From IMG/VR virus record IMGVR_UViG_3300025646_000272, positions 1-27,167 of that record: a DNA stretch of 27,167 nt; one strand, given 5' to 3'. Positions 2,366-23,300 of this stretch are shown here, piece by piece (the stretch's first letter is position 1; each line of letters begins with the position of its first letter). Under the pieces are notes generated by a model. That model was not told where the DNA came from, ran no database searches, and was given only the letters and a program-made list of their open reading frames with translations. The stretch is from a virus. A program made the translations under genes and the position numbers.

Positions 2366-2379
2366 TTTTAGCGTAAGAA

Positions 2380-4852: not shown

Positions 4853-6760
4853 ATGGCACTAGTTAATTTTACAAACTTAGACTTCGATCAAATAAAAAGT
4901 TCGCTTCGTGAGTACCTAAGAGCGAACTCAAATTTTACTGACTATGATTTTGATGGTTCTAACCTTTCATCTTTGATTGATGTTTTAGCATACAATACTT
5001 ATATTTCCTCATATAATGCTAATATGATTAGCAATGAGGTTTTTATTGATAGCGCCACATTGAGAGAAAATGTTGTTTCTCTTGCAAGAAATATAGGATA
5101 TGTTCCATATTCTCGCGCAGCTGCCAGAGCAAATATATCCTTTTTTGTAGATACGAACGGTTTTTCCACAAATCCAATTACGTTAACTCTCAAAAGTGGA
5201 ATAGTATGTACCACAAATACAACTTTTGGTAATCAGAGCTTTACTTTTATTATTCCACAAGATATAACAGTTCCTGTTATAAATGGAATTGCTTTATTTG
5301 ATAACATAGACATATATGAAGGTTTTTTTGCAACTAGCAATTTTACAGTAGACGCAAATAATAAAAATCAAAAATTTATCTTAAACAATGCAAATATTGA
5401 TATAGACTCAATTAGCGTTTCTGTTAGAAATACACAATCGAGTACAATAAGAAATGTATATAAATTATCAAAAAATTTATTTGAAATTAATTCGGAATCT
5501 AGAGTCTTCTTCATACAAGAAATAGAGGATCAAAGATATGAATTGATTTTTGGTGATGGTGTTTTTGGTAAGAAATTAGAAAATTTAAATTATATCGAAG
5601 TCAATTATAATATCACAAATGGTGAAAATGGAAATGGAGTTTCTTCTTTTAATTTTAGTGGTCGAATAGTAGATAATTTAAACAGAGTTGTAACCTCTGG
5701 AATATCCTTAATTACTACAAATTCTCCATCACAAAATGGAAGAGAAATTGAATCGGTAGAATCTATTAAAAAATATGCTCCTAGAAAATATTCTTCACAA
5801 AATCGTGCGGTGACTGCAACTGATTATGAAACAATTGTACCAACAATCTATCCAGAAGCTGAATCAGTATCTGTTTTTGGGGGAGAGAATTTAAATCCAC
5901 CAAGATATGGAAAAGTTTTTATATGTATAAAACCAATTAATGGACCTTTTGTTTCAAACCAAGTTAAAGATAATATTGAGAGAGATTTGAGGCGGTATTC
6001 TGTTGCGGGAATAGTGCCCGAGATTATAGATCTAAAATATCTTTATCTGGAAACTGATACTACTGCATATTATAATTCCAATACAACATTAGATCCAAAT
6101 TATCTTAAGCAAAAAATAATTAGCAATATTGATAGTTATTCAAATTCAAAAGAGCTTAATCGATATGGAGCAAGATTTAAGTACAGTAAGTATTTAAAAA
6201 TTATTGATGACTCAGATATTGCAATTATGTCGAATATTACCAAAATTGCAATGAGACGTGATCTGAGACTTGTTTTAAATGCTTTTGGTGATTATGAGAT
6301 TTGTTTTGGAAATCAATTTCACATAAAAAATCAAAATGGATATAATATTAAATCATCTGGATTTAATATTTCGGGAATAAATGATACCTTATATATTGGA
6401 GATATCCCAAATTCGGATAATATTACTGGAAGTATCTTTTTCTTTAAGTTACAATCTTCCCAACCAGTAATTGTAAAAAGAAATGTTGGAAAAATTGATT
6501 ATTTAAAGGGAGAAATAATACTATACCCAGTAAACATAAATTCCACACAAAAAACTTCATTTGATCAACCTATAATAGAAATTTCTGCTATTCCAAAGTC
6601 AAATGACGTAATTGGATTGCAGGATTTATATTTGCAACTAGATATTAATAGTGTTACATTAAACATGCTTTCTGACGAAATTTCTTCAGGTTCAGATATA
6701 TCTGGATCCTCTTATAAATTTACATCAAGTTACACCAACGGAGACCTCGTAAGATTATAA
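4853..6760 (+). CDS. 6: Baseplate wedge subunit gp6-like
   Basis: The 635-residue protein is close to T4 gp6 (660). The N-terminal region MALVNFTNLDFDQIKSSLRE, with LIDVLAYNTYISSYNANMIS (41-60) and ATLRENVVSLARNIGYVPYS (68-87), is typical of the gp6/baseplate J group. LIFGDGVFGKK (about 230-241) and the following VNYNITNGENGNG are the baseplate J-like core signature. RAVTATDYETIVPTIYPEA (about 317-335) is another conserved block. In T4, gp6 dimers make the inner iris that joins neighbouring wedges. It begins immediately after gp25, and the next gene starts 4 bases after its stop, so translation is probably coupled. The C-terminal third is the least familiar part. Confidence 0.92.
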   Translation: MALVNFTNLDFDQIKSSLREYLRANSNFTDYDFDGSNLSSLIDVLAYNTYISSYNANMISNEVFIDSATLRENVVSLARNIGYVPYSRAAARANISFFVDTNGFSTNPITLTLKSGIVCTTNTTFGNQSFTFIIPQDITVPVINGIALFDNIDIYEGFFATSNFTVDANNKNQKFILNNANIDIDSISVSVRNTQSSTIRNVYKLSKNLFEINSESRVFFIQEIEDQRYELIFGDGVFGKKLENLNYIEVNYNITNGENGNGVSSFNFSGRIVDNLNRVVTSGISLITTNSPSQNGREIESVESIKKYAPRKYSSQNRAVTATDYETIVPTIYPEAESVSVFGGENLNPPRYGKVFICIKPINGPFVSNQVKDNIERDLRRYSVAGIVPEIIDLKYLYLETDTTAYYNSNTTLDPNYLKQKIISNIDSYSNSKELNRYGARFKYSKYLKIIDDSDIAIMSNITKIAMRRDLRLVLNAFGDYEICFGNQFHIKNQNGYNIKSSGFNISGINDTLYIGDIPNSDNITGSIFFFKLQSSQPVIVKRNVGKIDYLKGEIILYPVNINSTQKTSFDQPIIEISAIPKSNDVIGLQDLYLQLDINSVTLNMLSDEISSGSDISGSSYKFTSSYTNGDLVRL

Positions 6761-6764
6761 TAAA

Positions 6765-9700
6765 ATGAAAGAAACCAGAATTAAAATCAGTTCAATCATC
6801 GACAATCAACTTCCACAATTTGTTAGAGAAGAATTTCCATTAGTATCGGAATTTTTATCTCAGTATTATATTTCTTTAGAAAATCAAGGTGGAACTAATG
6901 ATTTACTTCAAAATATTGAGCAGTACGTTAAAGTTGACAATTTAGCAAACTTAATTGAATCTACAAATTTAAGTTCTGATGTTACTTTTTTTGATTCTAC
7001 AATTAATGTATCTTCGACAGCAGGTTTTCCAGATTCTTATGGGTTACTATTAATTGATTCTGAAATTGTCACATACACTTCAAAGACTCCAACAACTTTT
7101 GATGGGTGTGTAAGAGGATTTAGTGGAATTAGTTCTTATGAAAGTAATGGCGATTTGGTTTTTTCAGAAACTTCAGTGGAAGAACACATTTCACCAACAA
7201 CCGTAACAAATTTAAGTGTTCTTTTTCTAAAAGAGTTTTTTGCAAAAGTAAAGAAGCAAATCACTCCTGGATTTGAAGGTAGAGAGTTATATTCAGATTT
7301 AAATGAAAGATTATTTACAAAGCAAGCTGTAGATTTTTATTCTTCAAAGGGAACAGATAACTCTTTTAAAATTTTATTTGGAGCATTATATGGAGAAAAT
7401 GTTGATATAATTAGACCAAGAGATTATCTGATAATACCATCAAGTGCCCAGTATAGAATTACTTCCGATCTAGTCGTAGAAAATATTGAAGGTAACCCAG
7501 AAGAGTTTATTAATGGTACGCTTTATCAGTATCAAAATTCGGATGAAATTTTAAAAATATCTCAGGGGACTGTTACTAAGGTCGAAAATATTATAAGAGG
7601 ATCAAAAACTTATTACGTAATAAGTTTAGATTCTGATTATGATAAAGATATTGAGCCAAAGGGATCGATATATGGAAAATTTAAAATACACCCACAAACA
7701 AAAATTACAACAGAAATTATTGCCAATTCGACAACAATTGAAGTTGATTCTACTGTAGGATTTCCAGTATCTGATGGTTTATTGAGTATAGATCTTCCCA
7801 ATGGATCTTCTTTAACTGTCCAGTATACTTCAAAGACATTGAATCAATTTTTGGGATGTACCGGTGTAGAACAAAACATACCAATATCAACAAAGGTAAA
7901 ATATGATTATTTTTCATATGGATATTCAAATTTAACTGGTGAAAAGATAAAGGTTAGAATTCTTGGTGTTTTATCTGACTTAGAAATACCAGAAAATACT
8001 ACATTATACTCAAATAACGATATTATTAAAATAAAGACCTTAGGAAAAGAATCTAAAGAACATAGAGACAATAATTGGTTTTTTAATATTCCGGTAAAAT
8101 ATGATGCAAGTTCCATAAGACTTTTGGATAGTTCAGACAAATCATATATTATCAATGTAGAAGAAGACCATATTTTTAGAGTGGGTAATTTAGTATCTTT
8201 AACCTCTTCATCTGGTTTGGAACAGATTGGAAATGTTATTTCAGTTGAAGATAAAAAATCTTTTAGTGTTCAATTTGGAGCAGAAAATTCTTTATTGGAC
8301 ATTTTACAGAAATATACAGTAAGAAAAATCGTAAATAAAGCGGAATTTGAAAATTACTCAATATCCAATCAATATACTTCTAATGTACAAAATGTTTATT
8401 TGGATAATGAGGAGTCATTATATGTTGCATCTCCTTCAATTCCATCATATTTGAATACACCTTTGGATATAAATGATCGTTCAGTCCAATTTAGTGGAAC
8501 TTTTACTGGAAATACTTTAAAAATAGGAAATCATGGATTTTATACTGGAGATTCTGTAGTATATAAACCCACAACTGAAAATTCTTTAGGTATTTCTTCG
8601 GGAATTTATTTTATAAAAAAAGTTAGCGATACAGAAGTAAAATTAGCTAAAAGTAGAAGTAATATTTTTTCTGAAAACTTTGTATCTGTAAATGGAACTG
8701 TTAATAATGCTAAATTTGAACTTAAAAATTTTGTATTTAATGATTTAAGTACACAAAAATTAGAATCTCAGAAATTAATCAGAAAAATAAAAAGACCAGA
8801 AGTTGATGGAAATTTATATCAAACTAAAGCAGGATTGATTGGAATTTTTGTTAATGGTGTCGAGATTCTTAACTACAAATCTAGAGATAATATTTATTAT
8901 GGTTCAATTGAAAGAATCGTAGCAACCTCTGGAGGATCTGGATATGATGTAATAAATCCACCAATTTTATCTATTTCAGACAAAAATGGTTCTGGAGCTA
9001 ATGGATATTGCTCAGTTATTGGTGGGCTTGAAAGAATTGATATTTTAGATCCGGGATTTGATTACCTTGAGGAACCAAAAATTGAAATTATTGGTGGAAA
9101 TGGGTCTGGAGCATCCGCAAAAGTAAATCTTGTGAGTTTTGACCATCAAGTTACCTTTAATTCAATTAGTTCTGCGGGATTAGTAAAATTAAATCCATTA
9201 AATCAAGTTGGATTTTCAAGTTATCATAAGTTTAGAGATGCGGAAGAAGTTGTTTATATAACAGACTCCCAAACTTCTGTTGGTGGGTTGTCCACAAATT
9301 CTACTTATTTTGTTTCTGTTAAAAATGAATTTAATGTAACTCTTCATAAGTCATTTGAAGATGCAGTTAGCGGCATTAATACTATTCAATTAACTTCATA
9401 TGGCGAAGGAAATCATTCTTTCAAATCAAAAAATAAAAAAAGAAAAATTGGTTCAATTCAAATTGAGTCTAATGGACAAAATTATCAAAATAAACTAGTC
9501 ATTGGTAGTGTGAGTGGAATAAATACTGCTTCCAATATTATCTCGATAAAAGACCATGGATATAATAATGGAGAAGTTATTGTATATAATGCAACAGAAG
9601 AACCTATAGGTGGATTATCATCTTCTACTTCATATTATGTAACTAAAATTGATAATGACCAATTTAAATTATCTCAACTTGGAATAGGAACTCTGGGAAT

Positions 9701-12700
9701 TCCTACATCTTTTTATTTTGATAATAAAAAATATGTAGATTTAACTTCCAAAGGTGTGGGAGATCATAAATTTAACTACCCAGAAATTAAAGTAAGTGTA
9801 ACAGGAAGAGTGGGAGTTTCTACACTATCTGGAAATAATTTTAATGCAATAATTCAACCAATTTTTAGAGGAGAAATTCAATCAGTATTTGTAGATAATG
9901 GTGGTTCAAACTATGGTTCAAATGAAATTATTAATTATAATGCACAACCACAATTTGATTTAAATTCTGGATCTGGAGCACAGTTAACTCCGATTATTTT
10001 AAATGGTCAAATTGTGGATGTTTTAATTCAAAGTCAAGGAAGTGGATATAATTCTCCACCAAATCTTATAATCAATGGTGATGGAAAAGGAGCACTACTA
10101 TCACCAGTATTATCTAATGGTACTTTGGTAGAAGTTATTATAATTTATGGTGGATCTGGGTACTTTCAAGCAAGCACATCTATTGTAGTAAATTCATCAG
10201 GTTCTGGAGCAAAATTAGAAGCGGGAATAAAATCTTGGAATATTAACCTAGTAGAAAGATTGATTAAGTCTCAACAAATAACAAAAGATGATGGAATTAT
10301 ATCCAATGGTATAAAGGATACTTATGGACTTCAATATACCCATGCATATGCGCCAAGAAATTTAAGATTTTCTACACAGGCAACTAAGTTTGAGGATGGG
10401 GAAATAAAATATATTCCGGATTTAATTATTTTAGATGGGAAAGAACTATCCCCCAATGAACTGGGCGGATCAAATGCTCACTCTCCTATTATTGGTTGGG
10501 CTTATGATGGAAATCCGATTTATGGGCCTAATGGATTTTCTTCAAAAACTGGAGGGTCTATTAGAACTCTAAAGTCTGGATATTCTCTAAGAAGTGATTT
10601 GGATGTTCTAGTTTCTTCAAGACAAAGACCCAATTATCCAAATGGATTTTTTGTTGAGGATTATATTTATCTTGAAGATGGGGATTTAGATGAGTCTAAT
10701 GGAAGATTTTGTATTACACCAGAATACCCAAATGGCGTGTATGCATATTTTGCAACTAATGAGAGTGAAAATGTGGAAGAATCCGGACCATTTCGGAATT
10801 ATAGGGCACCAAAATTCCCATATTTAATAGGAAATACGTATAAATCAAAACCAATCGAATTTAATTTCAAAGTAGATTCCAATCAAGATGATATTGATAT
10901 CAATAAAACCAATTGGAAGAGAAATACTACTCCATATGATATTTTTTCATATGAGTATTTGTTAAGTCCGAATCAAATAAAACAGCAAAACTCTAAAATA
11001 AAGAGTGTTTCAACTGGATCTATTGAATCTGTAAAAGTTGAGAATGGTGGAGAAAATTATAAAATAGGAGATGAAATTGTTTTTACTAGTCCAAATGGAT
11101 TTGGAGCAAAGGCCAAAGTTTCATCATTAAAAGGAAAGGAAATTTTCGATGTTGAAGTTTCTACGTCAACACTAAACAATTTTACATTTTATCCATATAA
11201 TAATAAATTTATTGGATTTTCAACTGTTCCTCACAATTATCTTGATAATGATTTGGTAACATTTGTAGGAATATTTGACTATAAAAAATCAGGAAATATA
11301 ACGGTACAAAATAACAAATTAGTTTTATATGTTGGTGTTGGATCTGCCCAACATACTGGAATTGTTACATATTTCAACGTATCTGGTAATTTACAATATC
11401 CAATAATTAGAGAGAATGATATATATCAAATTGGAGATGAGCAAGTTAAAATTTTAAATATTGATCGCCAGGCATCAAGAATTAGAGTTATTCGCAATCA
11501 AAATGGAACTATTGGATTAACTTCTTATTCAGCGGGATTTGCTCTTACTGAAAGGTCTAATAAGTTGCAATTTAATTTTGGCATTTCAACGTCATATAAC
11601 TTTGATATTGATAGAGAGATTTATTTTGATCCCAAAGAATCTATTGGTTTGGGAACAGTTTCTGGGGTTGGAATTGTCAGTACACTTTATTTTTCAAATA
11701 TAGGCGTTGGAATTACTCAATTAACAATTCCAACTCAATCAATTTACATTAAAAACCACAATTTAATCACTGGAGATTCTTTAACATACTCCGCAAATGG
11801 AGGGACTCAGGTTTCGGTTTCTACTGACGGAAAATCTAGTTTTTCGCTCTCTGAAAATTCAATAGTTTATGTCGCAAAAATTTCCAATGATCTTATTGGA
11901 ATATCAACTGTTAGAGTTGGATTGGGATCGAATGGAACTTTTGTTTCTGTAGGTTCAACGATAGAAAGTCAAATTTTATATTTTACTTCGGTTGGTACTG
12001 GGAACACTCATAGTTTTGTAACAAATTTAGAAAATAATCTTCGTGGGGATATAACGAAAAGCGTAGTAACAGTCACAACTACAGAATCTCATGGACTATC
12101 TTTGCAGGATAACATTAGTATTGGTGTAAAATCGGGAGTTTCTACTACTTTTGTAGTGAAATATAATGATTTTAATAGAAGATTGATAATAAACCCAAGA
12201 AATTTTGCTAGTGTAGATACTTCAAATGGAACTATTATAATTAATAACCATGGATATAAAACTGGGCAAAAGGTAGTATACAATGCAGCAACCCCTTCAG
12301 TTGGATTATCCAACAATCAGATTTATTATGTTGTAGTTGTAGACCCTAACAAAATTAGACTTTCTACCAGTTATTATCAGGCAATAAAGTCAACCCCAGA
12401 AACTATCATTATTGGGTCATCTCAACCAGGTATTTTATCGCAAATTAATCCTTTATTAAACTTTGTAAGAAATCAATCTATATTATTCGATCTTTCGGAT
12501 TCTTCATTATCTTTTTCAAACAACGGCATAGTATACTCAGCATTTGACCTAAGATTTTATAGTGATTCGGAGTTTATTAACGAATTTGATTCTACAAAAT
12601 CATCAAAGATATTTGAAATAGTAAGGGAGGGAAAGGTTGGAATAGATTCCACAGCAAATATTAAAGTAAACTTAAACGATAATTTTCCAAATGAACTGTA

Positions 12701-15700
12701 TTATAAATTAGTTCCTATCAATTTACAGATAAACTCAAATATTAAAAAAGATATCATAATTGATGATGAAGTACCCGGATTTAATAAAATTTCTTTAGTT
12801 AAAAGTGAATATAGTGGCAATTATTCTATTGTTGGAATTTCATCAACTACTTTCGCATTTAACATTTTAGATATATCTGAAAGAATATCTCCCGCCCAAG
12901 ATTTTGAGTATTATGTTCAAAAATCATCAACATCAAATGGATCCATTAATGAAATTACTGTTCTGAATGGAGGCAGAAATTATACTTCATTACCATTAGT
13001 TGCAGCAAAATCAGATCAAGGGTCAAACTCAATATTAAAGGCACAAACAAATGACATTGGGAAAATTAATTCAGTAGAAATAATTGATATTGGTTTTGAT
13101 TACTCCATAGACCATAGCGTTAGGCCCACTGCAAATTTTCCAAGCATTTTGTTTTTAGAACCACTATCTTCTTTAGATTATATTGGCATAACTTCTGTAG
13201 GGAAAAACTATACTTCCGCACCATCTCTGGTGGTAATAGATGGAATAACAAATAATGTAATTAATGATATAGAATTATCATATAATCTTGGGGATTCACG
13301 AGTTGCAATAAACAAAAATAGTAGTTATATTAACAGTGTTACTCCAAAAATTATTCCAATTAATAACTCAAATGGAATTAAAATTAATAACATCACCTTT
13401 GATGATCTGACTAAAGATGTTACAGTAACATTGGGGGCAAGCTTTAGTGATCCTCAAGATTATCCATTTGAAGTAGGAAGTAAAGTATTAATTGAAGGAG
13501 TTAGTGTAGGAATTGCTTCAACTGCAAAGGGATACAACTCTTCAAATTATAACTATAACTTATTCACTCTCACCGATATTGATCCAAACATTGGTGGTGC
13601 AATTGGAGTTGTTACTTTTAATTTATCTTCTTATTTGCTTGATGGGGAGAGTCCGGGGTCTTTTGATAGTAGATTTTCTGCTGGTAGAATAATACCAGAA
13701 TCGTATTTTCCTTCATTTAATCCAGTTTTAAAGAAGAATAATTTTTATAAGGGAGAAAATGTAAATTCAATTTCTTCAAATGGACTTGTTTTGGATTGGA
13801 ATAAAGAAAATCAATATTTAAAAGTATCCAATATTAATGACTTTTCTACAAATGAACTTATAATAGGGGAAACTTCTGGGTCTGTTGGTATTATAAAGGA
13901 AATTTTTAGTTTAGAAGGTAACTATGAGGTGAATGCATACTCAGAAGTGAGAAAAGGATGGAATACCGAAACTGGATTTTTAAACAATGATTTTCAAAGA
14001 GTCCATGATAGTGACTATTATCAATATTTTTCATATGCTCTTAAGTCAAAGCAAGACTTTAATAATTGGAATAATCCAGTAAGTGCTCTAAATCACACTG
14101 CAGGATTTAAAAAGTTTGGAAATTTAATTTTAGAATCTGTAGCAGGAAATGCTGGAATTTCTACGAATCAGAATAATGGAGATTTTTCTGGAACTACAGA
14201 TCTATCAAGATTTGTAGATTTAAATTGCGTTTTTGATTTTGATCTTGCTAGTGAAAATGGAATTATTTTAGATGGAAAGCTTATTTCAAATGAGATTATA
14301 TTCAATTCTAGAATTATCCAGGATTACATAGAATCTGTTGGTAATCGTGTCTTGATGCTTGATGATATTTCACAAGAATTTAATAGCAACCCGAGACCAA
14401 CAAAATTCAGTACTGTGGAATCTTTTGTTCTAAATGAACATAGAACAAAAAAATATTTTATTGTAGTACAAGATAAAATATTTGATACAGAAAAGCAATT
14501 AAGTTTGGTAGTTCTTCTGCAAGATGGTAATAATGGTTATTTGAATCAGTACGGATTAAGCACCAAAAATGATTTGGGATCTTTTGATTTTAATATCACC
14601 GGAAATTTAGGAAACTTGTTGTTCTATCCACAAAAAACGCAGTTTAATGATTACAATATACAGACACTCTCTTTTTCTCTAAACGATATTATAAGTGGGG
14701 TTGGAACTATAAATCTAGGAGATTGTGTTAGTATTGATACAAGTACTACAACAATTCCACAAGGAACATCGGTTTCAACTCCAATTGTTGGTATTGCTTC
14801 TACTTATAGATCATCAAAAATTCTAGTTCAAATTGGAGCAACTGATGCATCATACTACGAAACTGATGAAATTATTCTTATCAATGATGGAAATGATGCA
14901 TATCTTTTAGATTATGGGCAAATAACAACGAATATTATATCATCACAATCATACTCTGGTATAGGAACATATAATGCATACTTGGATGGTTCTGAAGTCA
15001 AAATAGATATAACTCCAAATGCCCCAACATCAGTTGATTATGTAATCAATACCTTTAACATTTCTATAGGAAATACCTCTACATCTGGAATAGGAACTCA
15101 AATTGTAAGTGGAAGTTCTTTATCTTCTTCCTCAGTGGGAATTGCATCAAGCAGTTCTCCAACGGAAAATATTTTAGCAGTATATTCTAATACTTTATAT
15201 AATGGCTCATATTTTATTGCGAGTATTGAGGACAAAACTAATTCAGAATATCAAGTTTCTGAATTTTTAGTACTAACAAATTCCAATGAAAATGAATGCT
15301 ATATGGTAGAATTTGGAACTCTTAATACACAAAATAATTTGGGTATAGTTACTGCCGGAGTTTCTGGTAATAATACTGAAATTTATTTTACACCAAATCA
15401 AGATATAGAAGTTGATGTTAAATTATTCTCAATTAACATCGGACTAAATCCACAATCCGATAGAATTTCTTTAGAAAATGGATATATTGAATATGATCAA
15501 AATGACTACCTCGGAACTGATAACGACATTAGGAAGGAATTTATCCTAAGTCATAAAAATAACCCAGTATTTGAAAGATATTTTGATGGAAGTGACTCCA
15601 AATATGTAAATTTGGAGAATAATACAATTACAATTCCAAATAATTTTTACGTAACTGGTGAGGAAGTAGTTTATTCATATCCGGGAGTAGGAACAACGCA

Positions 15701-18700
15701 AGCAATAGGTATTGCATCAACATCAATTGCAGGAATAGGAATAACAGATAAACTTCCACAATCACTATACATTATAAAATTAAATAATTTAAACGTAAGA
15801 GTTGCAGCTTCTGCTTCTGAGGCTCTTAGTCCGATTCCCAAATTCTTAGATTTAACTGGTGTTGGTATTGGTAGTTCTCACTTGTTTACTTCAAAAAATC
15901 AAAATAAAAAGGTTATTATTGGAATTGATAATTTAATTCAATCTCCTATATCACTAAGCGAAATTTCTACAACATTATCGCAAGATATTTCTATATTTGA
16001 CTCCATAATTTATATATCAAGCATAGATTTTATATATGGTGGGGATTTGATAAAGATTGATGATGAGATTATGAGAGTCAATTCTGTTGGGGTTGCAAGT
16101 ACAAATTCCATCAGGGTATCTAGAAAATGGTTGGGAACTGGGTTATCTACTCATACATCCTCCAGTCAGGTCACTAAAATATTTGGAAATTACAATATTA
16201 TCGGCAATAAAATTTATTTTTCTGAAGCTCCATATGGGAAAGTTCCTTTTACAAACCCATCAACAAGACCTGACGAGCAAGATTATATTGGAATTACTAC
16301 AGGATCAACATTTAGTGGAAGGGTATTTTTAAGATCGGGAATAACTGGATCTGATGAAGATCCATATTCAAAAAATTATATTTTTGATAATATTTCAAAT
16401 AATTTTGATGGATTGGATAAAACTTTTGAATTAAAGTCTGGTGGAAATAGTGTAACGGGAATATCTTCTGATAACGCAATTGTTCTTATTAATGATATTT
16501 TCCAAGGACCTGTAGCACCTTTAGTTGAGGGTGATTATTCTTTATCCGAAGAAGTTGGAGTTACGTCAATAACATTTGTAGGATCTGCTTCATCTTCAAC
16601 ATACGATGTTAACACCGCAAGTATTCCTAGAGGGGGTGTTATTATTTCTGTTGCATCTACTCCAGGATTTGGATATCAACCATTGGTGGCGGCTGGAGGA
16701 ACTGCTATTGTTTCTAGTGCAGGAACTATCCAATCAATCAGTATAGGAAACAGTGGATCTGGATATAGATCTGGTATTCAAGAAATAGTGCATGTTGGTG
16801 TCGCAACTTCAAGTCTAGGCGTTCCTAATATAGAATTTATTGGGACTGCATCCGTAAGTAATGGAAATGTCGTAAGTGTAGCAATAACAAATCCGGGAAT
16901 TGGTTATACATCAACAAATCCACCAATAGTAATATTTGATTCACCATTATCATATTCCAATATTCCACTAGTTTATAGTCAAGAATCTTCCGCAGGTAAC
17001 GGAATTGGTGCGGTTGTGGATATTGTTGTTGGTCAGGGATCTAGTATAATTTCATTTGAAATGAAAAATTTTGGATATGGGTATAAGAGAGGAGAAATAT
17101 TGACTGTCTCTGTTGGTGGAACTACTGGAATTGCTACAGACACTTCACTTTATTTTTCTGAATTTCAAATTTCAATAGATGATACTTTTGATGATAAGTT
17201 TGCATCTTGGACTGTTGGTTCTCTCCAAGTTATCGATCCCATAGATTCTCTATTTGACGGAGAGAGAAAAGTATTCCCAATTCTTATACAGGGAAACCAA
17301 ACTACAATTAGATCAAGACCTGGTTCAAATATCGATGTCCAGTCAACATTACTGATTTTTATCAATGATGTTTTGCAAATTCCTGGACAATCTTACACAT
17401 TTAAAGGTGGGAGTACGATAACATTTGTAGAGGCTCCAAAGGAAGGAGATACTTCTAAGGTGTTGTTCTACAAAGGAACAGAAAATGTTGATACTTCAAA
17501 TTCTGATATTTTAGAAAATGTTAAAATTGGAGATAAAGTTACATTAACTGATAATAATATTAAATTTACTGAAAATAGTAGGTTGATTGTGGAAATAATT
17601 TCTTCTGATAGCGCAGGAACTGATAGTTATTCTGGTCCGGGAAATACTGATGATGAAACACTACTGAGACCGGTGGTATGGTGTAGACAAACTGAAGATC
17701 TCTTTATAAATGGACAAGTAGTTGGAAAAGATAGAATCATCTACGAATCTTATATTCAACCAAGCACAAACATAATAAAAAATATTGATATTAATTCAGA
17801 AGAAATATTCGTTGAAAGTGTTAAGACATTCTTCGACAGTGAAAAAGAATATATTCATGATGGACTTAATGAACTTCCACAAAATAAAATTATAATTGTT
17901 TCTCAGGATTCGGTGGTATCCGCTTCAGCAACGGCGATTGTTTCCGCCTCAGGAACAATATCTTCAGTTATTATCACTAGTGGTGGTGTTGGATATTCTA
18001 CCACACCAACAATTTCAATATCGGGACCAGTTGGATTTGGAACAACAACAGCACAAAATACTGCAAGTGCAATAGCAATTATTTCTGGTGGGGAGGTAAC
18101 TGGAATTTCAGTAACATTTGGTGGATCTGGTTACTTGCAATCACAACCACCTATAGTTTTAATAGAATCTCCGAAGATAACTTACGAGTCTATTGATTCA
18201 GTAACATATGAAGGAGATTTTGGAATTATTACTGGAGTTCAAACAACTTCTGTTGGTGTTGCATCAACGGGGATTATATTTGATTTCTTTATTCCAAAAG
18301 ATTCTGTATTGAGAGATCCTAGTATTGTAAAAGTTGGGATTGCTACTACGGGTATAAGTGGAATTCAAACTGGATACTACTTTACTATTAATAATTCTAA
18401 TATTGGATATGGGATTACATCGCTAGATTCTTTCAATAATATTGTTGGAGTTGGCACATCATTTATCAATAATGTTTATCAAGTTGCTGCAGTTTCAATT
18501 GCACAAACTGCTGTTCCTGGAATTGGAATTACTAATGTTGCTAAAGTGACCGTAAGTGTTGCCGATTATGATGGATTGAGTGGTTTTGGGTTTAGTGCTT
18601 TTTATGGAGAATATAGTTGGGGAAGAATAGAAACACCATTTAGATTAAATCCACAAGAGTTTAATACATATGCAAATATTGGGGGAATCGCCACTTCACC

Positions 18701-18752
18701 ATCAGTTCAAAGATTCAATAGATTAAAATATAATGGTTATTCAACTACATAA
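6765..18752 (+). CDS. Giant modular baseplate/tail protein in the gene 7 position, 3,995 aa
   Basis: One uninterrupted frame encodes about 430 kDa, 44% of the window. It lies between gp6 and gp8, where T4 has gp7 (1,032 aa), so it is probably the wedge scaffold or a tail-fibre-like extension. The N-terminus (MKETRIKISSIIDNQLPQFV) resembles cyanophage structural proteins. Visible modules: GFP...EIVTYTSKT repeats (about aa 77-121 and 315-368); NHG(Y/F)..G..V.Y repeats from about aa 583; paired GSGY/GSGA repeats; a YHYH-type domain (about 1215-1360) with GWAYDGNPIYGP and NGRFCITPEYPNG; three tandem repeats of about 120 codons starting at 2560, 2682 and 2801; two FDG...FINDVLQ.PG tail-fibre-like segments (about 3211-3270 and 3491-3575). 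No protease or enzyme signature is clear. A VrlC-type cyanophage structural protein label is possible, but I cannot check it. Confidence 0.85.
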   Translation: MKETRIKISSIIDNQLPQFVREEFPLVSEFLSQYYISLENQGGTNDLLQNIEQYVKVDNLANLIESTNLSSDVTFFDSTINVSSTAGFPDSYGLLLIDSEIVTYTSKTPTTFDGCVRGFSGISSYESNGDLVFSETSVEEHISPTTVTNLSVLFLKEFFAKVKKQITPGFEGRELYSDLNERLFTKQAVDFYSSKGTDNSFKILFGALYGENVDIIRPRDYLIIPSSAQYRITSDLVVENIEGNPEEFINGTLYQYQNSDEILKISQGTVTKVENIIRGSKTYYVISLDSDYDKDIEPKGSIYGKFKIHPQTKITTEIIANSTTIEVDSTVGFPVSDGLLSIDLPNGSSLTVQYTSKTLNQFLGCTGVEQNIPISTKVKYDYFSYGYSNLTGEKIKVRILGVLSDLEIPENTTLYSNNDIIKIKTLGKESKEHRDNNWFFNIPVKYDASSIRLLDSSDKSYIINVEEDHIFRVGNLVSLTSSSGLEQIGNVISVEDKKSFSVQFGAENSLLDILQKYTVRKIVNKAEFENYSISNQYTSNVQNVYLDNEESLYVASPSIPSYLNTPLDINDRSVQFSGTFTGNTLKIGNHGFYTGDSVVYKPTTENSLGISSGIYFIKKVSDTEVKLAKSRSNIFSENFVSVNGTVNNAKFELKNFVFNDLSTQKLESQKLIRKIKRPEVDGNLYQTKAGLIGIFVNGVEILNYKSRDNIYYGSIERIVATSGGSGYDVINPPILSISDKNGSGANGYCSVIGGLERIDILDPGFDYLEEPKIEIIGGNGSGASAKVNLVSFDHQVTFNSISSAGLVKLNPLNQVGFSSYHKFRDAEEVVYITDSQTSVGGLSTNSTYFVSVKNEFNVTLHKSFEDAVSGINTIQLTSYGEGNHSFKSKNKKRKIGSIQIESNGQNYQNKLVIGSVSGINTASNIISIKDHGYNNGEVIVYNATEEPIGGLSSSTSYYVTKIDNDQFKLSQLGIGTLGIPTSFYFDNKKYVDLTSKGVGDHKFNYPEIKVSVTGRVGVSTLSGNNFNAIIQPIFRGEIQSVFVDNGGSNYGSNEIINYNAQPQFDLNSGSGAQLTPIILNGQIVDVLIQSQGSGYNSPPNLIINGDGKGALLSPVLSNGTLVEVIIIYGGSGYFQASTSIVVNSSGSGAKLEAGIKSWNINLVERLIKSQQITKDDGIISNGIKDTYGLQYTHAYAPRNLRFSTQATKFEDGEIKYIPDLIILDGKELSPNELGGSNAHSPIIGWAYDGNPIYGPNGFSSKTGGSIRTLKSGYSLRSDLDVLVSSRQRPNYPNGFFVEDYIYLEDGDLDESNGRFCITPEYPNGVYAYFATNESENVEESGPFRNYRAPKFPYLIGNTYKSKPIEFNFKVDSNQDDIDINKTNWKRNTTPYDIFSYEYLLSPNQIKQQNSKIKSVSTGSIESVKVENGGENYKIGDEIVFTSPNGFGAKAKVSSLKGKEIFDVEVSTSTLNNFTFYPYNNKFIGFSTVPHNYLDNDLVTFVGIFDYKKSGNITVQNNKLVLYVGVGSAQHTGIVTYFNVSGNLQYPIIRENDIYQIGDEQVKILNIDRQASRIRVIRNQNGTIGLTSYSAGFALTERSNKLQFNFGISTSYNFDIDREIYFDPKESIGLGTVSGVGIVSTLYFSNIGVGITQLTIPTQSIYIKNHNLITGDSLTYSANGGTQVSVSTDGKSSFSLSENSIVYVAKISNDLIGISTVRVGLGSNGTFVSVGSTIESQILYFTSVGTGNTHSFVTNLENNLRGDITKSVVTVTTTESHGLSLQDNISIGVKSGVSTTFVVKYNDFNRRLIINPRNFASVDTSNGTIIINNHGYKTGQKVVYNAATPSVGLSNNQIYYVVVVDPNKIRLSTSYYQAIKSTPETIIIGSSQPGILSQINPLLNFVRNQSILFDLSDSSLSFSNNGIVYSAFDLRFYSDSEFINEFDSTKSSKIFEIVREGKVGIDSTANIKVNLNDNFPNELYYKLVPINLQINSNIKKDIIIDDEVPGFNKISLVKSEYSGNYSIVGISSTTFAFNILDISERISPAQDFEYYVQKSSTSNGSINEITVLNGGRNYTSLPLVAAKSDQGSNSILKAQTNDIGKINSVEIIDIGFDYSIDHSVRPTANFPSILFLEPLSSLDYIGITSVGKNYTSAPSLVVIDGITNNVINDIELSYNLGDSRVAINKNSSYINSVTPKIIPINNSNGIKINNITFDDLTKDVTVTLGASFSDPQDYPFEVGSKVLIEGVSVGIASTAKGYNSSNYNYNLFTLTDIDPNIGGAIGVVTFNLSSYLLDGESPGSFDSRFSAGRIIPESYFPSFNPVLKKNNFYKGENVNSISSNGLVLDWNKENQYLKVSNINDFSTNELIIGETSGSVGIIKEIFSLEGNYEVNAYSEVRKGWNTETGFLNNDFQRVHDSDYYQYFSYALKSKQDFNNWNNPVSALNHTAGFKKFGNLILESVAGNAGISTNQNNGDFSGTTDLSRFVDLNCVFDFDLASENGIILDGKLISNEIIFNSRIIQDYIESVGNRVLMLDDISQEFNSNPRPTKFSTVESFVLNEHRTKKYFIVVQDKIFDTEKQLSLVVLLQDGNNGYLNQYGLSTKNDLGSFDFNITGNLGNLLFYPQKTQFNDYNIQTLSFSLNDIISGVGTINLGDCVSIDTSTTTIPQGTSVSTPIVGIASTYRSSKILVQIGATDASYYETDEIILINDGNDAYLLDYGQITTNIISSQSYSGIGTYNAYLDGSEVKIDITPNAPTSVDYVINTFNISIGNTSTSGIGTQIVSGSSLSSSSVGIASSSSPTENILAVYSNTLYNGSYFIASIEDKTNSEYQVSEFLVLTNSNENECYMVEFGTLNTQNNLGIVTAGVSGNNTEIYFTPNQDIEVDVKLFSINIGLNPQSDRISLENGYIEYDQNDYLGTDNDIRKEFILSHKNNPVFERYFDGSDSKYVNLENNTITIPNNFYVTGEEVVYSYPGVGTTQAIGIASTSIAGIGITDKLPQSLYIIKLNNLNVRVAASASEALSPIPKFLDLTGVGIGSSHLFTSKNQNKKVIIGIDNLIQSPISLSEISTTLSQDISIFDSIIYISSIDFIYGGDLIKIDDEIMRVNSVGVASTNSIRVSRKWLGTGLSTHTSSSQVTKIFGNYNIIGNKIYFSEAPYGKVPFTNPSTRPDEQDYIGITTGSTFSGRVFLRSGITGSDEDPYSKNYIFDNISNNFDGLDKTFELKSGGNSVTGISSDNAIVLINDIFQGPVAPLVEGDYSLSEEVGVTSITFVGSASSSTYDVNTASIPRGGVIISVASTPGFGYQPLVAAGGTAIVSSAGTIQSISIGNSGSGYRSGIQEIVHVGVATSSLGVPNIEFIGTASVSNGNVVSVAITNPGIGYTSTNPPIVIFDSPLSYSNIPLVYSQESSAGNGIGAVVDIVVGQGSSIISFEMKNFGYGYKRGEILTVSVGGTTGIATDTSLYFSEFQISIDDTFDDKFASWTVGSLQVIDPIDSLFDGERKVFPILIQGNQTTIRSRPGSNIDVQSTLLIFINDVLQIPGQSYTFKGGSTITFVEAPKEGDTSKVLFYKGTENVDTSNSDILENVKIGDKVTLTDNNIKFTENSRLIVEIISSDSAGTDSYSGPGNTDDETLLRPVVWCRQTEDLFINGQVVGKDRIIYESYIQPSTNIIKNIDINSEEIFVESVKTFFDSEKEYIHDGLNELPQNKIIIVSQDSVVSASATAIVSASGTISSVIITSGGVGYSTTPTISISGPVGFGTTTAQNTASAIAIISGGEVTGISVTFGGSGYLQSQPPIVLIESPKITYESIDSVTYEGDFGIITGVQTTSVGVASTGIIFDFFIPKDSVLRDPSIVKVGIATTGISGIQTGYYFTINNSNIGYGITSLDSFNNIVGVGTSFINNVYQVAAVSIAQTAVPGIGITNVAKVTVSVADYDGLSGFGFSAFYGEYSWGRIETPFRLNPQEFNTYANIGGIATSPSVQRFNRLKYNGYSTT
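8511..8730 (+). repeat. NHGF-type module 1 in giant protein
   Basis: Encodes LKIGNHGFYTGDSVVYKP, then GISSGIYFIKKVSDTEVKLA, from about residue 583. The pattern is NHG(F/Y).(T/N)G(D/E/Q).V.Y, a short linker, G(L/I)S...Y(F/Y), then a V.L.(K/S)S segment. At least four other copies lie further on in the same protein. Confidence 0.6.
8898..9135 (+). repeat. GSGY/GSGA module pair 1 in giant protein
   Basis: Encodes two units, ATSGGSGYDVINPPILSI followed by KNGSGANG, and ILDPGFDYLEEPKIEIIGG followed by GNGSGASAKV. The unit reads (I/V)..GG.GY...P.(I/V).I, a short turn, then GSGA.A.(V/I).(G/N)G.(I/V). It occurs at least five more times as single or paired units. Confidence 0.6.
9150..9430 (+). repeat. 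NHGF-type module 2 in giant protein (divergent)
   Basis: Encodes SSYHKFRDAEEVVYITDSQ, then GGLSTNSTYFVSVKNEFNV and GEGNHSF. H821 lines up with the histidine of the NHG motif, but the following glycine is replaced. The spacing of the later parts agrees with module 3. Confidence 0.5.
9528..9775 (+). repeat. NHGY-type module 3 in giant protein
   Basis: Encodes ISIKDHGYNNGEVIVYNATE, GGLSSSTSYYVTKIDNDQFK and GVGDHKFNYP. It directly follows module 2, giving a tandem pair with matching GxGxHxF ends. Confidence 0.6.
9868..10230 (+). repeat. GSGY/GSGA modules 2-4 in giant protein
   Basis: Three consecutive units: VDNGGSNYGSNEIINYNA ending SGSGAQL; IQSQGSGYNSPPNLIINGDG ending KGALL; and IIYGGSGYFQASTSIVVNSS ending GSGAKL. 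The DNA at 10149-10169 matches 18120-18140 at 19 of 21 positions, which points to module duplication. Confidence 0.6.
10419..10840 (+). other. YHYH-type domain in giant protein
   Basis: Residues 1219 to about 1358 contain DLIILDGKE, HSPIIGWAYDGNPIYGP (1239-1255), a loop, LEDGDLDESNGRFCITPEYP and NGVYAYFATN, then PKFPYLIGN. These are the landmarks of the YHYH domain family (Pfam PF14240) seen in cyanophage structural proteins. The eponymous YHYH residues are not present; the equivalent stretch reads GVYAYF. Function is unknown, with some resemblance to secreted cell-surface domains. Confidence 0.65.
11720..12450 (+). repeat. NHG-type modules 4 and 5 in giant protein
   Basis: Module 4 encodes IYIKNHNLITGDSLTYSANG and later SENSIVYVAKISNDLIGIS and GTGNTHSF. 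Module 5 encodes TIIINNHGYKTGQKVVYNAA and GLSNNQIYYVVVVDPNKIRL. They are separated by about 180 bases and follow the same order of blocks as modules 1-3. Confidence 0.55.
12937..13245 (+). repeat. GSGY-type module group in giant protein (divergent)
   Basis: Encodes ITVLNGGRNYTSLPLVAAKS, IIDIGFDYSIDHSVRPTANF and ITSVGKNYTSAPSLVVIDG. The glycine-aromatic turn and following P or A-P segment are kept, but the GSGA turn is largely lost. These are probably older copies. Confidence 0.45.
14442..15455 (+). repeat. Three tandem repeats of about 120 codons in giant protein
   Basis: The units start near residues 2560, 2682 and 2801, spaced 122 and 119 codons. Each has a beta-rich opening (KKYFIVVQD, SKILVQIGA, NILAVYSNT). 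Then comes E..(L/I)...(D/N)..(N/D).(C/A)Y...(F/Y)G, as in LLQDGNNGYLNQYGLST, LINDGNDAYLLDYGQITT and TNSNENECYMVEFGTLNT. A G....L.F.P or (I/Y).ITP block and a closing F.(L/I).IG segment follow. The type is not one I can name. Confidence 0.6.
15601..15912 (+). repeat. NHG-type module 6 in giant protein
   Basis: Encodes TITIPNNFYVTGEEVVYSYP, later PQSLYIIKLNNLNVRVAASA, ending GVGIGSSHLF. The HG pair is replaced by NF, but the TG..VVY core and the G.GSSHxF end are kept. Confidence 0.5.
16627..17123 (+). repeat. GSGY-type module cluster in giant protein
   Basis: Four units in a row: VASTPGFGYQPLVAAGGTA, ISIGNSGSGYRSGIQEIV, VAITNPGIGYTSTNPPIVIF and FEMKNFGYGYKRGEILTVSV. They sit between two FDG/FIND tail-fibre-like segments (16396-16590 and 17236-17490). 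Confidence 0.55.
17911..18245 (+). repeat. C-terminal GSGY module pair in giant protein
   Basis: Encodes ATAIVSASGTISSVIITSGG with GVGYSTTPTISISGP, and AIISGGEVTGISVTFGGSGY with LQSQPPIVLIESP. The GGTGGATCTGG-containing segment at 18120-18140 is nearly the same as at 10149-10169. Confidence 0.6.
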
Positions 18753-18771: not shown

Positions 18772-20316
18772 ATGTCAGCAATTATAACTGATCAATTAAG
18801 AATATTAAACGCGAAGAATTTTGTTGCGGCGGCCACTTCTTCTTCAAATTCATATTATTCTTTTGTTGGGTTAACTAACGCATCAGACTATTCATCCTCT
18901 TGGGAATTGAATCCACCATCACCAAAAGATAGTTTTGAGCAAGAAAATGATTATTGGGATACTATGATTGCTTTGAAAAAAATCAAAGCAAGTGATGTTA
19001 ATCTCGTTATTAAAAAAAATACCTGGTCATCGGGCACAGTATATGATATGTACCGACATGATATCAGTAGGACAAATACATCTCCTTCTGGTGCTACAAG
19101 TCTTTATTCATCAAATTATTACATAATTAATAGTGACTTTAGGGTTTATATTTGTTTGCAGAATGGAACAGACCCAGAGAATCCTAGTGGTAGACCATCT
19201 TTGGATGAACCAACTTTCGTCGATTTGGAACCAAAGGCAGCTGGAGATAGTGGGGATGGGTATATTTGGAAATATCTTTACACAATAAAACCAAGTGAGA
19301 TAATAAAATTTGATACTATTAATTTTATTCCGGTACCAAACGATTGGGAAAATTATTCGGAAAGTGCAATAAGAGAAAATACAAATACACCAAATAATCA
19401 ACTTAAAATTATAACTATTACAAATCGTGGTGTTGGTTTGGGGACTGCAAATAGAATATACACAAATGTACCTATTAAAGGTGATGGCACTGGAGCTAAA
19501 GCAACTATTGTTATTAACAACGATTCAAAAGTAGATTCTATTACAGTCTCAGTTGGTGGTTCTGGATATACTTATGGAACTGTAGATTTGGTTGGGGGAA
19601 ATGTGCCGACTGGAAGTATTCCACCAACTTTTGATGTTATTATTCCACCAAAAGGTGGTCATGGTGCAGATATCTACAGAGAACTTGGAGCTTATAATGT
19701 TTTAATTTTTTCAAGAATTGAAAATGATACAGAAAATCCAGATTTTATTACTGGTAATAAAATTGCTAGAGTTGGTATTGTAGAAAATCCTGAGGCATAT
19801 AATTCTACATCATTGCTAGATATAGATAAAGCAAGTGCAGTTTATGCACTTAGATTAGTTGGTGAAGATTATGACACTACAACATTTATACCAAATTCTA
19901 GGTTTACTCAAACTATAGGTACAGGAGTTACTGCTGTAGGTAGGGTAGTTTCTTATGATCAGAATACTGGAGTTTTAAAATATTGGCAGGATAAATCCCT
20001 CGTTGGTTTTAATACAGATGGTTCTCAAAATTCATCACCAACTTATGGCATACAATTAAATAGATTTACAAATTCTGTGGGAACCGGAGGAACAACTCTT
20101 ATAAACGGAACAAACCTTTATATTGACAGTTCCTTTACTGGTATTACTACGACACTAAATAGTAGAACATATAATCTTGGACAACCTTTTATTGGCGGAA
20201 TATCAAATCCAGAAGTTAAAAAATACTCGGGAAACATTATTTACGTCGATAATAGACCTTCGATTACTAGATCTCAAAATCAAAAAGAAGATATCAAAGT
20301 TATTTTGCAATTCTAA
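18772..20316 (+). CDS. 8: Baseplate wedge subunit gp8-like with inserted GSGY module
   Basis: The 514-residue protein is longer than T4 gp8 (334 aa) but shares its landmarks. SSSWELNPPSPKDSFEQEND (41-60) aligns with the PWSSNENE..APPYPTDSV region. GDGYIWKYLYTI (161-172) matches GDGYVWEYLFEI. NKIARVGIVENP (329-340) matches the ISIITNP block. The C-terminal NRPSITRSQNQKEDIKVILQF stretch matches T4's NRPPIIMAMDQTEEINILFTF. In T4, gp8 is a dimeric wedge protein bound to gp7 and gp10. Residues about 212-295 have no T4 counterpart that I can see and contain DGTGAKATIVINN and SVGGSGYTYGTVDL, the same module as in the giant protein upstream. The next gene begins 6 bases after the stop. Confidence 0.85.
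   Translation: MSAIITDQLRILNAKNFVAAATSSSNSYYSFVGLTNASDYSSSWELNPPSPKDSFEQENDYWDTMIALKKIKASDVNLVIKKNTWSSGTVYDMYRHDISRTNTSPSGATSLYSSNYYIINSDFRVYICLQNGTDPENPSGRPSLDEPTFVDLEPKAAGDSGDGYIWKYLYTIKPSEIIKFDTINFIPVPNDWENYSESAIRENTNTPNNQLKIITITNRGVGLGTANRIYTNVPIKGDGTGAKATIVINNDSKVDSITVSVGGSGYTYGTVDLVGGNVPTGSIPPTFDVIIPPKGGHGADIYRELGAYNVLIFSRIENDTENPDFITGNKIARVGIVENPEAYNSTSLLDIDKASAVYALRLVGEDYDTTTFIPNSRFTQTIGTGVTAVGRVVSYDQNTGVLKYWQDKSLVGFNTDGSQNSSPTYGIQLNRFTNSVGTGGTTLINGTNLYIDSSFTGITTTLNSRTYNLGQPFIGGISNPEVKKYSGNIIYVDNRPSITRSQNQKEDIKVILQF
19405..19656 (+). repeat. GSGY/GSGA module inserted in gp8
   Basis: Residues about 212-295 of gp8 carry IITITNRGVGLGTANRIYTN, GDGTGAKATIVINN, SITVSVGGSGYTYGTVDL and PPTFDVIIPP. 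The block order agrees with the giant protein's modules. It falls between segments that align to T4 gp8. Confidence 0.6.
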
Positions 20317-20322: not shown

Positions 20323-23300
20323 ATGCCACAGGAAACTAATCTCAACGTCTCTCCATATTTTGACGATTTTGACCCACAGAAAGACTATTACAAAGTTCTT
20401 TTTAAACCAGGATATCCAATACAAGCAAGAGAATTAAATACTCTTCAATCAATTGCTCAAAATCAGATTGAGAGATTTGGTACTCATATTTTTAAAGAAG
20501 GTTCTGTAGTAATTCCTGGGCAATTAAAATATTATTCTCCTCTTTATGCCATTCAAATCGAGTCTCAGTTTAATGGAGTTCCCATTTCTCTATATTTTGA
20601 TCAACTTCTTGGATCAAAAATTAGAGGTCAGTCTAGTGGAGTAACTGCAGAAATAGTATATCTTTTAACTGATGTAGAGTCCGAAAGAAATATACATACC
20701 ATTTATGTCAAATATCTCCAAAGTGGTGGTGAAGACTTTGATGTAAAGATTTTTAGAGATTCCGAAACTCTTTTATTAGAAAATTCTATATCTTATGGAC
20801 AAGTAACAATACAATCTGGACAGGGATTTGCCAATACAATTTCCCAAAATTCAACTGCAGAAGGGTCTTCAGTTTCTGTAGCTCCAGGAGTTTATTTTGT
20901 TAGAGGAACTTTTGTAAGAGTTGCTGAACAAACGATCTTATTGGATCAATATAGAATTACGCCATCATATAAAGTTGGATTTGAAGTTGTAGAAAGCATT
21001 ATAAATTCGGATCAAGATTCAACATTATTTGATAATGCTCAGGGATTTTCAAACTATGCAGCTCCAGGTGCAGATAGATTTAAGTTGGAGTTGATCTTAT
21101 CAAAAAGGGAAATTGACGATAACCAAATAGATTCTTTTGTTGAAATTTTAAGAGTTCGAGGAGGTATTCCTCAGTTTTTTGATGAAAACCCACAGTATAA
21201 TATTTTAAGAGATCAGTTAGCTAGGAGAACTTATGATGAATCTGGTGACTATTATGTAAAACCATTTACTCTTTTTGTTAGAGATTCTTTAAACGACAGA
21301 ACTCTTTCTGATGGAATGTTTTTTGAAACCCAAAGAACTGCACAAGGAAATACACCATCAGAAGAATTGATGGTCTACGAAATTGGGCCAGGAAAAGCCT
21401 ATGTCCAAGGTTATGATGTAGAAACTATTTCTGCTACTTTATTGGATGTTCCAAAAGCAAGAACAACAAAAGATTCAGAAAATCAATCAATATCTTATAA
21501 TTCAGGATCTTTATGCGTAGTTAATAATGTTTATGGAACAGTAACTCCTGGGTTGGGAACTGATTCTGTTGTTAGCTTAATGGACTCTAGGATTGGATCC
21601 ACACCTCATGTTGCAACTGGAACAACAATTGGATACGCAAGAGTTTATGATTTTGTCCCAGAGACTAGTTATATTGATGATACAAGTAGATTTGAACTAA
21701 GATTATTTGATATTCAAACATACACAACTATAGGATTAACAACTTCATTTACGGATACACTATCTACCCCTGCGTTCGTCGAAGGAAAGAGAAGCAATGC
21801 CTCGGGTTATCTTGTATCAGATACTGCTGCGGGAGTAGACTCTTTAACATTATATCAAGTTAGTGGAAAATTCTTAGAAAATGAACCAATATCGATAAAT
21901 GGAATTGATGATTCCAGATTAATTAATTCGGTAACAGATTATTCAATAAGAGATATTAAGTCGATATATTCTCAAACTGGAATATCTACATTTAATGCAG
22001 ACTTGTTACTAAGTAGAAAATCTTATATTGCAAGTCCAGGAACTACGTTCAATATAACTGCTTCTAGTGGAGGAATTAGTACAGTTTCTGCAGGATTGGA
22101 AAAGAATTTCGTAAAATTAATAAAACCTGGAGACATTATTTCATATTCTTCAATTGGAAGTGACCCAATCTACAATAAAGTAACCAATGTGAGTCTTGGT
22201 GGAACTTATTTTGAAATTCAGGGGATTACTACAGTAACTGGAGTTTGTAATGGTGCTTTATCGGATAATGAACAAAATATAACAAATATTTTTAAAATTG
22301 AATCTAATATTTCTGGAACTAAGTCTTTAATGACTTTACTTGGTGATAAAAATATTGCTACGTTAGATTTTGCGGAGAACGAAGTAATTCAAAGAAGACT
22401 GTTTAGTGATTCTTTTTCCAATAATACCGTTTCAGTTACGATTCCGGCGGAAGACATTGATATTTTCTTTGAATCTTTTGATGAAGATCGATATGTTCTT
22501 TCATACCCAGATGGAACTTACGAATCTTTAAGACGTGACCAATTCTTATTATCCACTACAGGAAAAACAATAACACTTTCAAATCTTTCAAAAAGTTCTG
22601 GAAATTATGAACTTATTGCAACTGTAAAAAATATCGGAGCAAGTTCAAAATCTAAGAAATTTAACAAAACCTCTTCGGTTGTAATTTCCAACTCAAAACT
22701 TACATCATCGGGAATTGGAACTACAACTCTTAATGACGGACTTACTTATAGCAAAATCTATGGAACAAGAGTTCAAGATAAACAAATAAGTCTTGGTGTG
22801 CCGGATGTTGCTAGATTTTTGGCTATTTTTGAATCTGAAGATATTTCCGATCCTGTTCTTCCAACTTTAACACTAAGCGGTTTTAGTGGACCCTCAAACA
22901 GTAACGTAGATTTTGTTGTTGGAGAGCAGATTAAGGGTCAGTCCTCTGGTGCTGTTGCTATAATAGTCAATAAAAAAGATTCAAACAAGTTAGAATACGT
23001 CAATCTAAACACCTTTAAATTCAGCATTGGAGAAGTCATTGTTGGTGATGAATCATCTATTCAAGCCATAGTTTCTTCAAAACTAAGGGGAAGTAAAAAT
23101 GTTTCAAATAACTATTCATTAGATGACGGACAAAGATCAACATATTACGACTATTCCAGAATTGTAAGAAAAAGAAACGTAGCAGAACCAAAAGGTAAAC
23201 TTAGAGTTATATTTCAAAATTACACCATTGATCCTTCGGATACTGGAGAATTTATAACAGTTAACAGTTATAACCAAGAAAACTTTAAGTATGATGTTCC

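Follow-up and report, generated by a model that had tools for sequence, protein, structure and literature searches.

Cyanomyoviruses are among the most abundant viruses of the ocean, and their baseplate has the task of sensing the host and firing the tail. In phage T4, the baseplate protein gp7 is a monomer present in six copies per baseplate, which forms a platform for gp6 together with gp8 and provides a link to gp10 (PMC3004832). The gp7 orthologue of phage XM1 (242 aa) contributes one helical hairpin to a core bundle of three chains, and the tail spikes attach to its internal insert and its C-terminal tail (PMC10457771). T4 gp7 was reported to be absent from cyano- and pelagimyophages, in which it 'appears to be substituted' by VrlC (PMC7029224). 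The protein S-PM2d081 of cyanophage S-PM2, which acquired non-synonymous mutations in coevolution chemostats, was described just as an exceptionally large hypothetical protein (PMC9910659). Neither a solved baseplate structure of a cyanomyovirus nor a description of a split-core gp7 architecture was found in the literature searched.

The window, i.e. the whole 27,167-nt stretch of viral DNA analysed here, carries at 6765..18752 on the plus strand a single ORF of 3,995 codons without a stop or frameshift, which starts 4 nt past gp6 and ends 19 nt ahead of gp8; on the other strand of the window, no open stretch exceeds 141 codons. The order gp25, gp6, giant ORF and gp8 is backed by Pfam and PHROG matches of the neighbours, all of which lie on the plus strand: gp25 (sheath initiator or wedge subunit, 133 aa, 4451..4852; PF04965, GPW_gp25, E 3.9e-16; phrog_261, E 3.1e-55), the wedge subunit gp6 (635 aa, 4853..6760; PF21379, Gp6-like_1st, E 6.1e-16; phrog_219, E 1.6e-197) and the wedge subunit gp8 (514 aa, 18772..20316; PF09215, Phage-Gp8, E 3.5e-17; phrog_438, E 8.6e-158). 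A gene for a VrlC/DUF4815 protein of at least 2,281 aa follows on the same strand and is cut by the window end (20323..27165; PF16075, E 5.1e-61; phrog_358); S-SM2 has a 'VrlC protein' at the matching position. This gene occupies the place of T4 gp9-gp12, and both its product and gp8 also contain GGxGY-like stretches. In the upstream part of the window, positions 1-2000 have a G+C content of 42-44% (about 27-37% elsewhere), an opposite GC skew and small ORFs only, and parts of them have matches among the hypothetical genes that precede gp25 in S-SM2 and Bellamy. Positions 2433-3200 encode a 255-aa conserved cyanophage protein (phrog_1574) weakly similar to a phage glycosyltransferase family, and their DNA is 81% identical with that of SynMITS9220M01.

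A preliminary description of this DNA, made from the sequence alone, had noted an open, unframeshifted giant frame between gp6 and gp8, about four times as long as T4 gp7, and had considered it to be under selection to stay open. All these points were borne out: the length is 3,995 versus 1,032 aa (ratio 3.9), and the giant frame is under purifying selection, with dN/dS of about 0.17-0.18 over the whole length. The ratio was even along the chain in comparisons with two environmental relatives jointly covering the protein: dN was 0.14 and dS 0.86 over residues 1-3098 (against an 80%-identical relative, with a similar ratio in each 500-residue bin), and dN was 0.15 and dS 0.82 over residues 1996-3994.

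The size of the protein is ordinary for gp7 of Kyanoviridae, is already annotated and is not new as a phenomenon. The novelty that the preliminary description implied for a length four times that of T4 gp7 is not supported, this being the usual state in Kyanoviridae, in which lengths reach 7,312 aa. Residues 2-3353 of the giant align with positions 6-3359 of the PHROG 2885 profile ('baseplate wedge subunit', 4,179 positions) at 3,425 bits. Residues 1-600 match 482 phage records, nearly all from Synechococcus or Prochlorococcus phages, in which 'baseplate wedge initiator' and gp7 are the usual names, although such GenBank names may reflect gene position. When environmental viral contigs were scanned with the N-terminus of the giant, at least 558 relatives were confirmed; for the C-terminal scan of the collection a single sequence was used as the query, an alignment of the diverse C-termini being too variable. 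The proteins in the gp6-gp8 slot range from 1,937 to 7,312 aa: S-CREM2 gp122 (1,937), S-CAM9 (3,884), Bellamy and SynMITS9220M01 (4,067 each), S-SCSM1 (4,120), S-SM2 (4,156), S-T4 (4,749), P-SSM2 (5,195), Syn9 (6,076), S-SM1 (6,180), S-SZBM1 (6,619) and P-SSM4 (7,312). Orthologues of near full length (3,884-5,195 aa) carry the annotation gp7 or 'baseplate wedge initiator' throughout Kyanoviridae, and the window protein is an average family member. Its alignment with near relatives is collinear, has few gaps and shows 40-50% identity; with cyanophage gp7s it is collinear from end to end at about 41-46% identity. The gp7 orthologues are spread over at least five 'T4-GC' clusters in GenBank notes (107, 397, 826, 969 and 1204). 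S-CAM9 gp7 is without the stretch equivalent to window residues ~2560-2920, and its C-terminal 500 residues contain repeats resembling a BNR/sialidase-type propeller.

The relationship to T4 gp7 was examined with the first 480 residues of 15 cyanophage proteins as the query. Profile alignment with the gp7s of phages BUCT608, V45v66 and phiM7 gave an E-value of 8.9e-18, these gp7s matched T4 gp7 645-846 with E 7.4e-12, and the cyanophage profile matched T4 gp7 directly with E 2.3e-8, each of the three being the value of a single comparison. In the control, which consisted of 27 overlapping segments of the giant with reversed columns, E never fell below 0.025. T4 gp7 was also the top match in two unbiased PDB-wide profile searches (E 8.9e-6 and 4.8e-5). 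Weak PDB matches to enterotoxin subunits and nitric oxide synthase were short, had E above 0.02 and were discarded. The sequence match places giant residues 185-220 on T4 gp7 725-760. In the AF2 model of residues 1-480 (mean pLDDT 64), residues 228-442 superpose on T4 gp7 762-853 (5iv5_BJ, Z 8.1, rmsd 2.8, 87 aligned; 9f4a_A0, Z 7.9), a range which coincides with T4 domain V as defined by Pfam (766-861). Most other structural matches of the model cover only a beta-barrel module at 308-382, and a Z-score of 8.1, near the level of the unrelated beta-barrel matches, would not be convincing by itself. The structural match is useful because it is collinear with the sequence match and follows directly after it.

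Giant residues 1-442 and approximately 2396-2459 are homologous to T4 gp7 643-890. The strength of the similarity differs along the core. The N-terminal helical segment is tied to T4 only through the bridge of the short gp7s that align to T4 645-846, and an HMM of this helix gave no match when compared directly with T4 gp7. The second core piece matches T4 weakly when taken by itself (E 2.3e-4 as a single comparison; HMM E 1e-3 to 3e-2). No profile match to the N-terminal 640 residues of T4 gp7 or to its domain VI (920-1012) was found in any 300-residue segment of the giant. These two parts are not family-defining because the short gp7s and S-CREM2 gp122 end 15-65 residues past the second-piece motif. 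A comparison of the C-terminal end with gp7, which the preliminary description had suggested, gave a negative result: neither similarity to gp7 nor a clear fold was seen in the last 400 residues (AF2 pLDDT 61; best Foldseek E 0.02; best VIA Z 6.1), the missing fold match not being evidence for a new fold. The same description left it undecided whether the giant replaces or extends gp7; the homology to T4 643-890 and the single gp7 of the complete relatives speak for extension and against replacement.

The core pieces and modules were mapped along the plus strand as follows. Piece 1 begins with the N-terminal helical segment (1a, residues 8-60, 6786..6944), whose HMM matches at the same place in the short gp7s of four other phages with E 1e-4 to 8e-8. 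A beta module (residues 66-150, 6960..7214), which includes a type C module at 77-130, falls in a gap when the profile is aligned with the BUCT608 group and is missing from the gp7s of 486-503 aa. The DFYSSKG helix (1b, residues 180-232, 7302..7460) carries the T4 725-760 match of the PDB profile searches, and its HMM matches T4 726-758 with E 4.2e-12. The predicted domain V (residues 228-442, 7446..8090), assigned by the AF2 superposition, is broken by the beta-barrel module (residues 308-382, 7686-7910). The inter-core insertion (8091..13949), about 1,950 residues of beta modules flanked by the core pieces, contains eight type A and five type B modules as well as a YHYH domain (residues 1233-1335, 10461..10769; PF14240, E 2.7e-22). 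The YHYH motif GWA-DG-PIYG is also present between the two parts of the core in S-PM2, S-CREM2, S-SZBM1 and P-SSM2; four non-cyanophage gp7s lack it. Piece 2 (residues 2396-2459, 13950..14141) aligns by hhalign with BUCT608 378-438 (E 1.2e-9) and with T4 863-890, and its HMM matches T4, RB49, Miller, nt-1 and Aswh_1 in one register. Its motif is DSDYYQ..SY..KS....W..V..L.H.AGFKK, or in a longer reading ...GFLNxxxQRxxDSDYYQxFSYxxKSxxxxxxWxxxVxxLxHxAGFKKF..., and the BUCT608 gp7 profile (497 positions) matched deep inside each cyanophage giant searched. The C-terminal extension (14142..18749) comprises about 1,536 residues, is kept in relatives and closes with a conserved YGEYSWGRI motif; none of its segments showed similarity to T4 gp7.

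Three repeat families were found in the giant: a 37-aa GGxGY module in 13 copies, a 66-aa module in six and a 51-aa module in three. The 'repeated beta-type modules' of the preliminary description are borne out in part; by our estimate the three families cover about one quarter of the chain. One GGxGY tandem (window 17976-18158, residues 3738-3798) weakly matches residues 446-506 of the tailspike depolymerase Dpo31 (E 1.1e-3).

The order of the landmarks was compared using three HMMs (N-helix, DFYSSKG and YYQ) built from cyanophages alone. In each of the five T4-like gp7s, the DFYSSKG and YYQ models matched in order; the full set of three did so in short gp7s from four further phages and in each cyanophage giant long enough (the partial contig L017 stops before the third). 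The DFYSSKG-to-YYQ spacing is 99-105 residues in T4, RB49, Miller, nt-1, Aswh_1 and Desulfovibrio phage 7757, 250-253 in BUCT608 and V45v66, 793 in phiM7, 1,629 in S-CREM2, 2,164 in the window giant (2,126-2,223 in its group) and 2,707-2,802 in S-SZBM1, Syn9, S-SM1 and P-SSM4. Since the landmarks are ordered alike but lie 2,164 residues apart, compared with about 100 in T4, the gp7 core is split, its two parts being separated by beta modules of about 2,000 residues in total. The BUCT608 spacer already contains a GGxGY-type module, and the giants thus enlarge a site of insertion that was present before. A second insertion site lies inside piece 1, with about 85 residues in the window giant; the N-helix and DFYSSKG are about 630 residues apart in Syn9, P-SSM4, S-SM1 and S-SZBM1. 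The third site of expansion is the C-terminus (15 residues in S-CREM2, 1,536 in the window giant and 3,716 in P-SSM4). In Pelagibacter phage HTVC008M, a single frame of 1,016 codons (record positions 33450-35900) contains both gp7 core pieces in order.

Orthologues of the giant were detected in virions. T4-GC969 was found in S-SM1 virions (Sullivan et al. 2010, PMC3037559) and is, according to the S-SM1 record, SSM1_102, the giant of the gp7 slot. The records of S-SCSM1 and S-CREM2 list S-SCSM1_15 (4,120 aa) and gp122, respectively, among the virion proteins (PMC9602691, PMC10665884). S-CREM2 gp122 was represented by 91 unique peptides (PMC10665884), and 71 peptides of S-SZBM1_208 (6,619 aa, 724 kDa) were obtained from virions (PMC9146016). 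Giant gp7 orthologues, identified by slot or landmarks, are thus virion proteins in four published proteomes, the evidence coming from phages other than the window virus. The T4 gp7 family phrog_964 matches only the giant ORF in complete cyanophages with any match, and no second gp7 was found elsewhere in the complete relatives, in which the single-gp7 status was assessed, the window genome being known as a 27-kb fragment. The preliminary description had named a separate gp7 or absence from virions as arguments against its proposal; the complete relatives and the mass spectrometry of homologues gave neither. The 'gp7' of Anabaena phage A-1(L) was set aside as an unrelated neck protein sharing the number; the wedge of A-1(L) is gp31/gp32.

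We consider it very probable that the giant represents gp7 in a T4-like cyanophage of the Synechococcus type, with a split core whose two pieces are reunited in the (gp6)2-gp7 wedge and with the modules forming a peripheral lobe. At the level of sequence, the N-terminal helix, DFYSSKG helix, domain V and DSDYYQ motif make up a wedge core homologous to that of T4; beta modules of about 2,000 residues cut this core in two, and another 1,540 or so residues follow it. In the folded protein, the two pieces would come together, and the reunited core would join the gp6 dimer in the wedge bundle, with six copies in each baseplate. The modules of the insertions and of the C-terminus would protrude as a large peripheral lobe, which may replace the work of the N-terminal 640 residues of T4 gp7 and much of that of gp9, gp10 and gp11, dock the fibres and possibly contact the host surface. 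XM1 is a precedent for inserts serving as docks, and by analogy the inserts of the giant, located in XM1-like kinds of places, may be enlarged docks or ornaments. The takeover of the gp9/gp10 job would not be general because S-SCSM1 and S-SZBM1 have gp9/gp10-like N-domains (PF07880, 40-residue matches only, in separate ORFs). The S-SCSM1 interval between gp7 and gp8 (segment positions 20510-21863) contains a 2OG-Fe(II) oxygenase gene and the small gene with this N-domain, and S-SZBM1_206, also between gp7 and gp8 (segment positions 6111-7607), has the same 40-residue domain start.

A contribution to host contact is suggested by the YHYH domain and by the mutations in S-PM2d081. This protein (3,048 aa; segment positions 1531-10677), encoded between gp6 and gp8, shows the three gp7 landmarks and is therefore the gp7 of S-PM2; its non-synonymous mutations appeared both early and late in coevolution with Synechococcus (PMC9910659). 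The giant could even be mainly a receptor-binding protein or adhesin, with the gp7 core only as an anchor and the extra 3,500 residues as a host-binding array. Besides the S-PM2d081 mutations and the presence of PF14240, the weak resemblance of a GGxGY module to a stretch of the Dpo31 tailspike (E 1.1e-3) and the annotation of the Syn9 orthologue as a putative fibre are in agreement with such a role. We nevertheless find it doubtful, since the giant is without a recognised receptor-binding fold, its modules are kept at 40-50% identity across genera with dN/dS of about 0.17 and no hypervariable segment, from which typical receptor-binding tips differ, and the relatives possess separate tail-fibre genes.

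It is improbable that the giant is a polyprotein, or that it is cleaved to yield separate wedge and ornament proteins. Phage B23 does encode the protein in two ORFs, of 2,845 and 1,081 aa, which overlap by ATGA (segment positions 28538-28541) at the point equivalent to window residue 2902, but a single ORF is present in all the other relatives examined, and the B23 form could be a sequencing error or the split of one lineage. The published reading (PMC7029224), in which gp7 is absent, VrlC substitutes for it and the giant is an unrelated structural protein in the slot, is hardly credible: the direct similarity of the giant to T4 gp7 is indeed short and visible only by profiles, but the gp7 landmarks are present in the giant ORF, VrlC is a separate gene downstream of gp8 which coexists with a 503-aa gp7 in the Stenotrophomonas phage and with gp7 in phiM7, and pelagiphage HTVC008M has both core pieces in its 1,016-codon ORF. 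The DUF4815 domain was not found in the giant ORF by the Pfam search and was found in the separate downstream ORF. The evidence for a split-core gp7 contradicts the view that cyano- and pelagiphages lack gp7.

With the giant read as a split-core gp7, the protein is probably universal in T4-like phages, including cyano- and pelagiphages. A core of about 250 residues would be kept and would grow by nested insertion (up to about 2,800 residues between domain V and DSDYYQ, with more in piece 1 and after piece 2), one chain thus serving as both wedge scaffold and peripheral ornament. The new part is the evidence for true gp7 identity and for the split core, not the size. gp7 would thereby return to the shared T4 structural set. 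The giant would be the largest protein of the cyanomyovirus baseplate, in which the split-core map locates two anchoring pieces and a variable ornament of 3,500 residues. The domain map offers a concrete target for cryo-EM and allows adaptive mutations, such as those in S-PM2d081, to be read.

The closest counterparts are the gp7s of S-SM2, SynMITS9220M01, Bellamy, S-SCSM1 and P-SSM2, which share the gene order gp25-gp6-gp7-gp8-VrlC with the window, are collinear with the giant over the full length and have their landmarks at nearly identical positions. They differ from it in sequence (31-46% identity) and small indels; P-SSM2 has a longer tail and, unlike in the window, two small genes separate gp7 and gp8 in S-SCSM1. 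The gp7s of BUCT608 (503 aa, Stenotrophomonas) and V45v66 (486 aa, Variovorax) resemble the giant in the N-terminal core and in the GGxGY modules between the pieces, and both phages share its gene order and a VrlC-like gene, but the spacer is about 250 instead of 2,164 residues, the YHYH domain is missing and almost nothing follows the second piece. The gp7s of phiM7 (1,006 aa, Sinorhizobium), HTVC008M and S-CREM2 have split cores with intermediate spacers and, unlike the giant, those of phiM7 and S-CREM2 stop 15-21 residues past the second piece. Vibrio phage XM1 gp17, the gp7 orthologue likened here on the basis of its published description (PMC10457771), is bundled with two gp6-like chains and carries peripheral parts on its insert and C-terminal tail, though its inserts are tiny compared with those of the giant. 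T4 gp7 (1,032 aa; PDB 5iv5) shares with the giant the DFYSSKG helix, domain V, a YYQ-type motif and the genomic slot. Whereas T4 gp7 has about 640 residues (fn3 and others) before the core, core pieces with nothing inserted between them and domain VI after them, the cyanophage giant starts with the core and has its extra residues within and after it.
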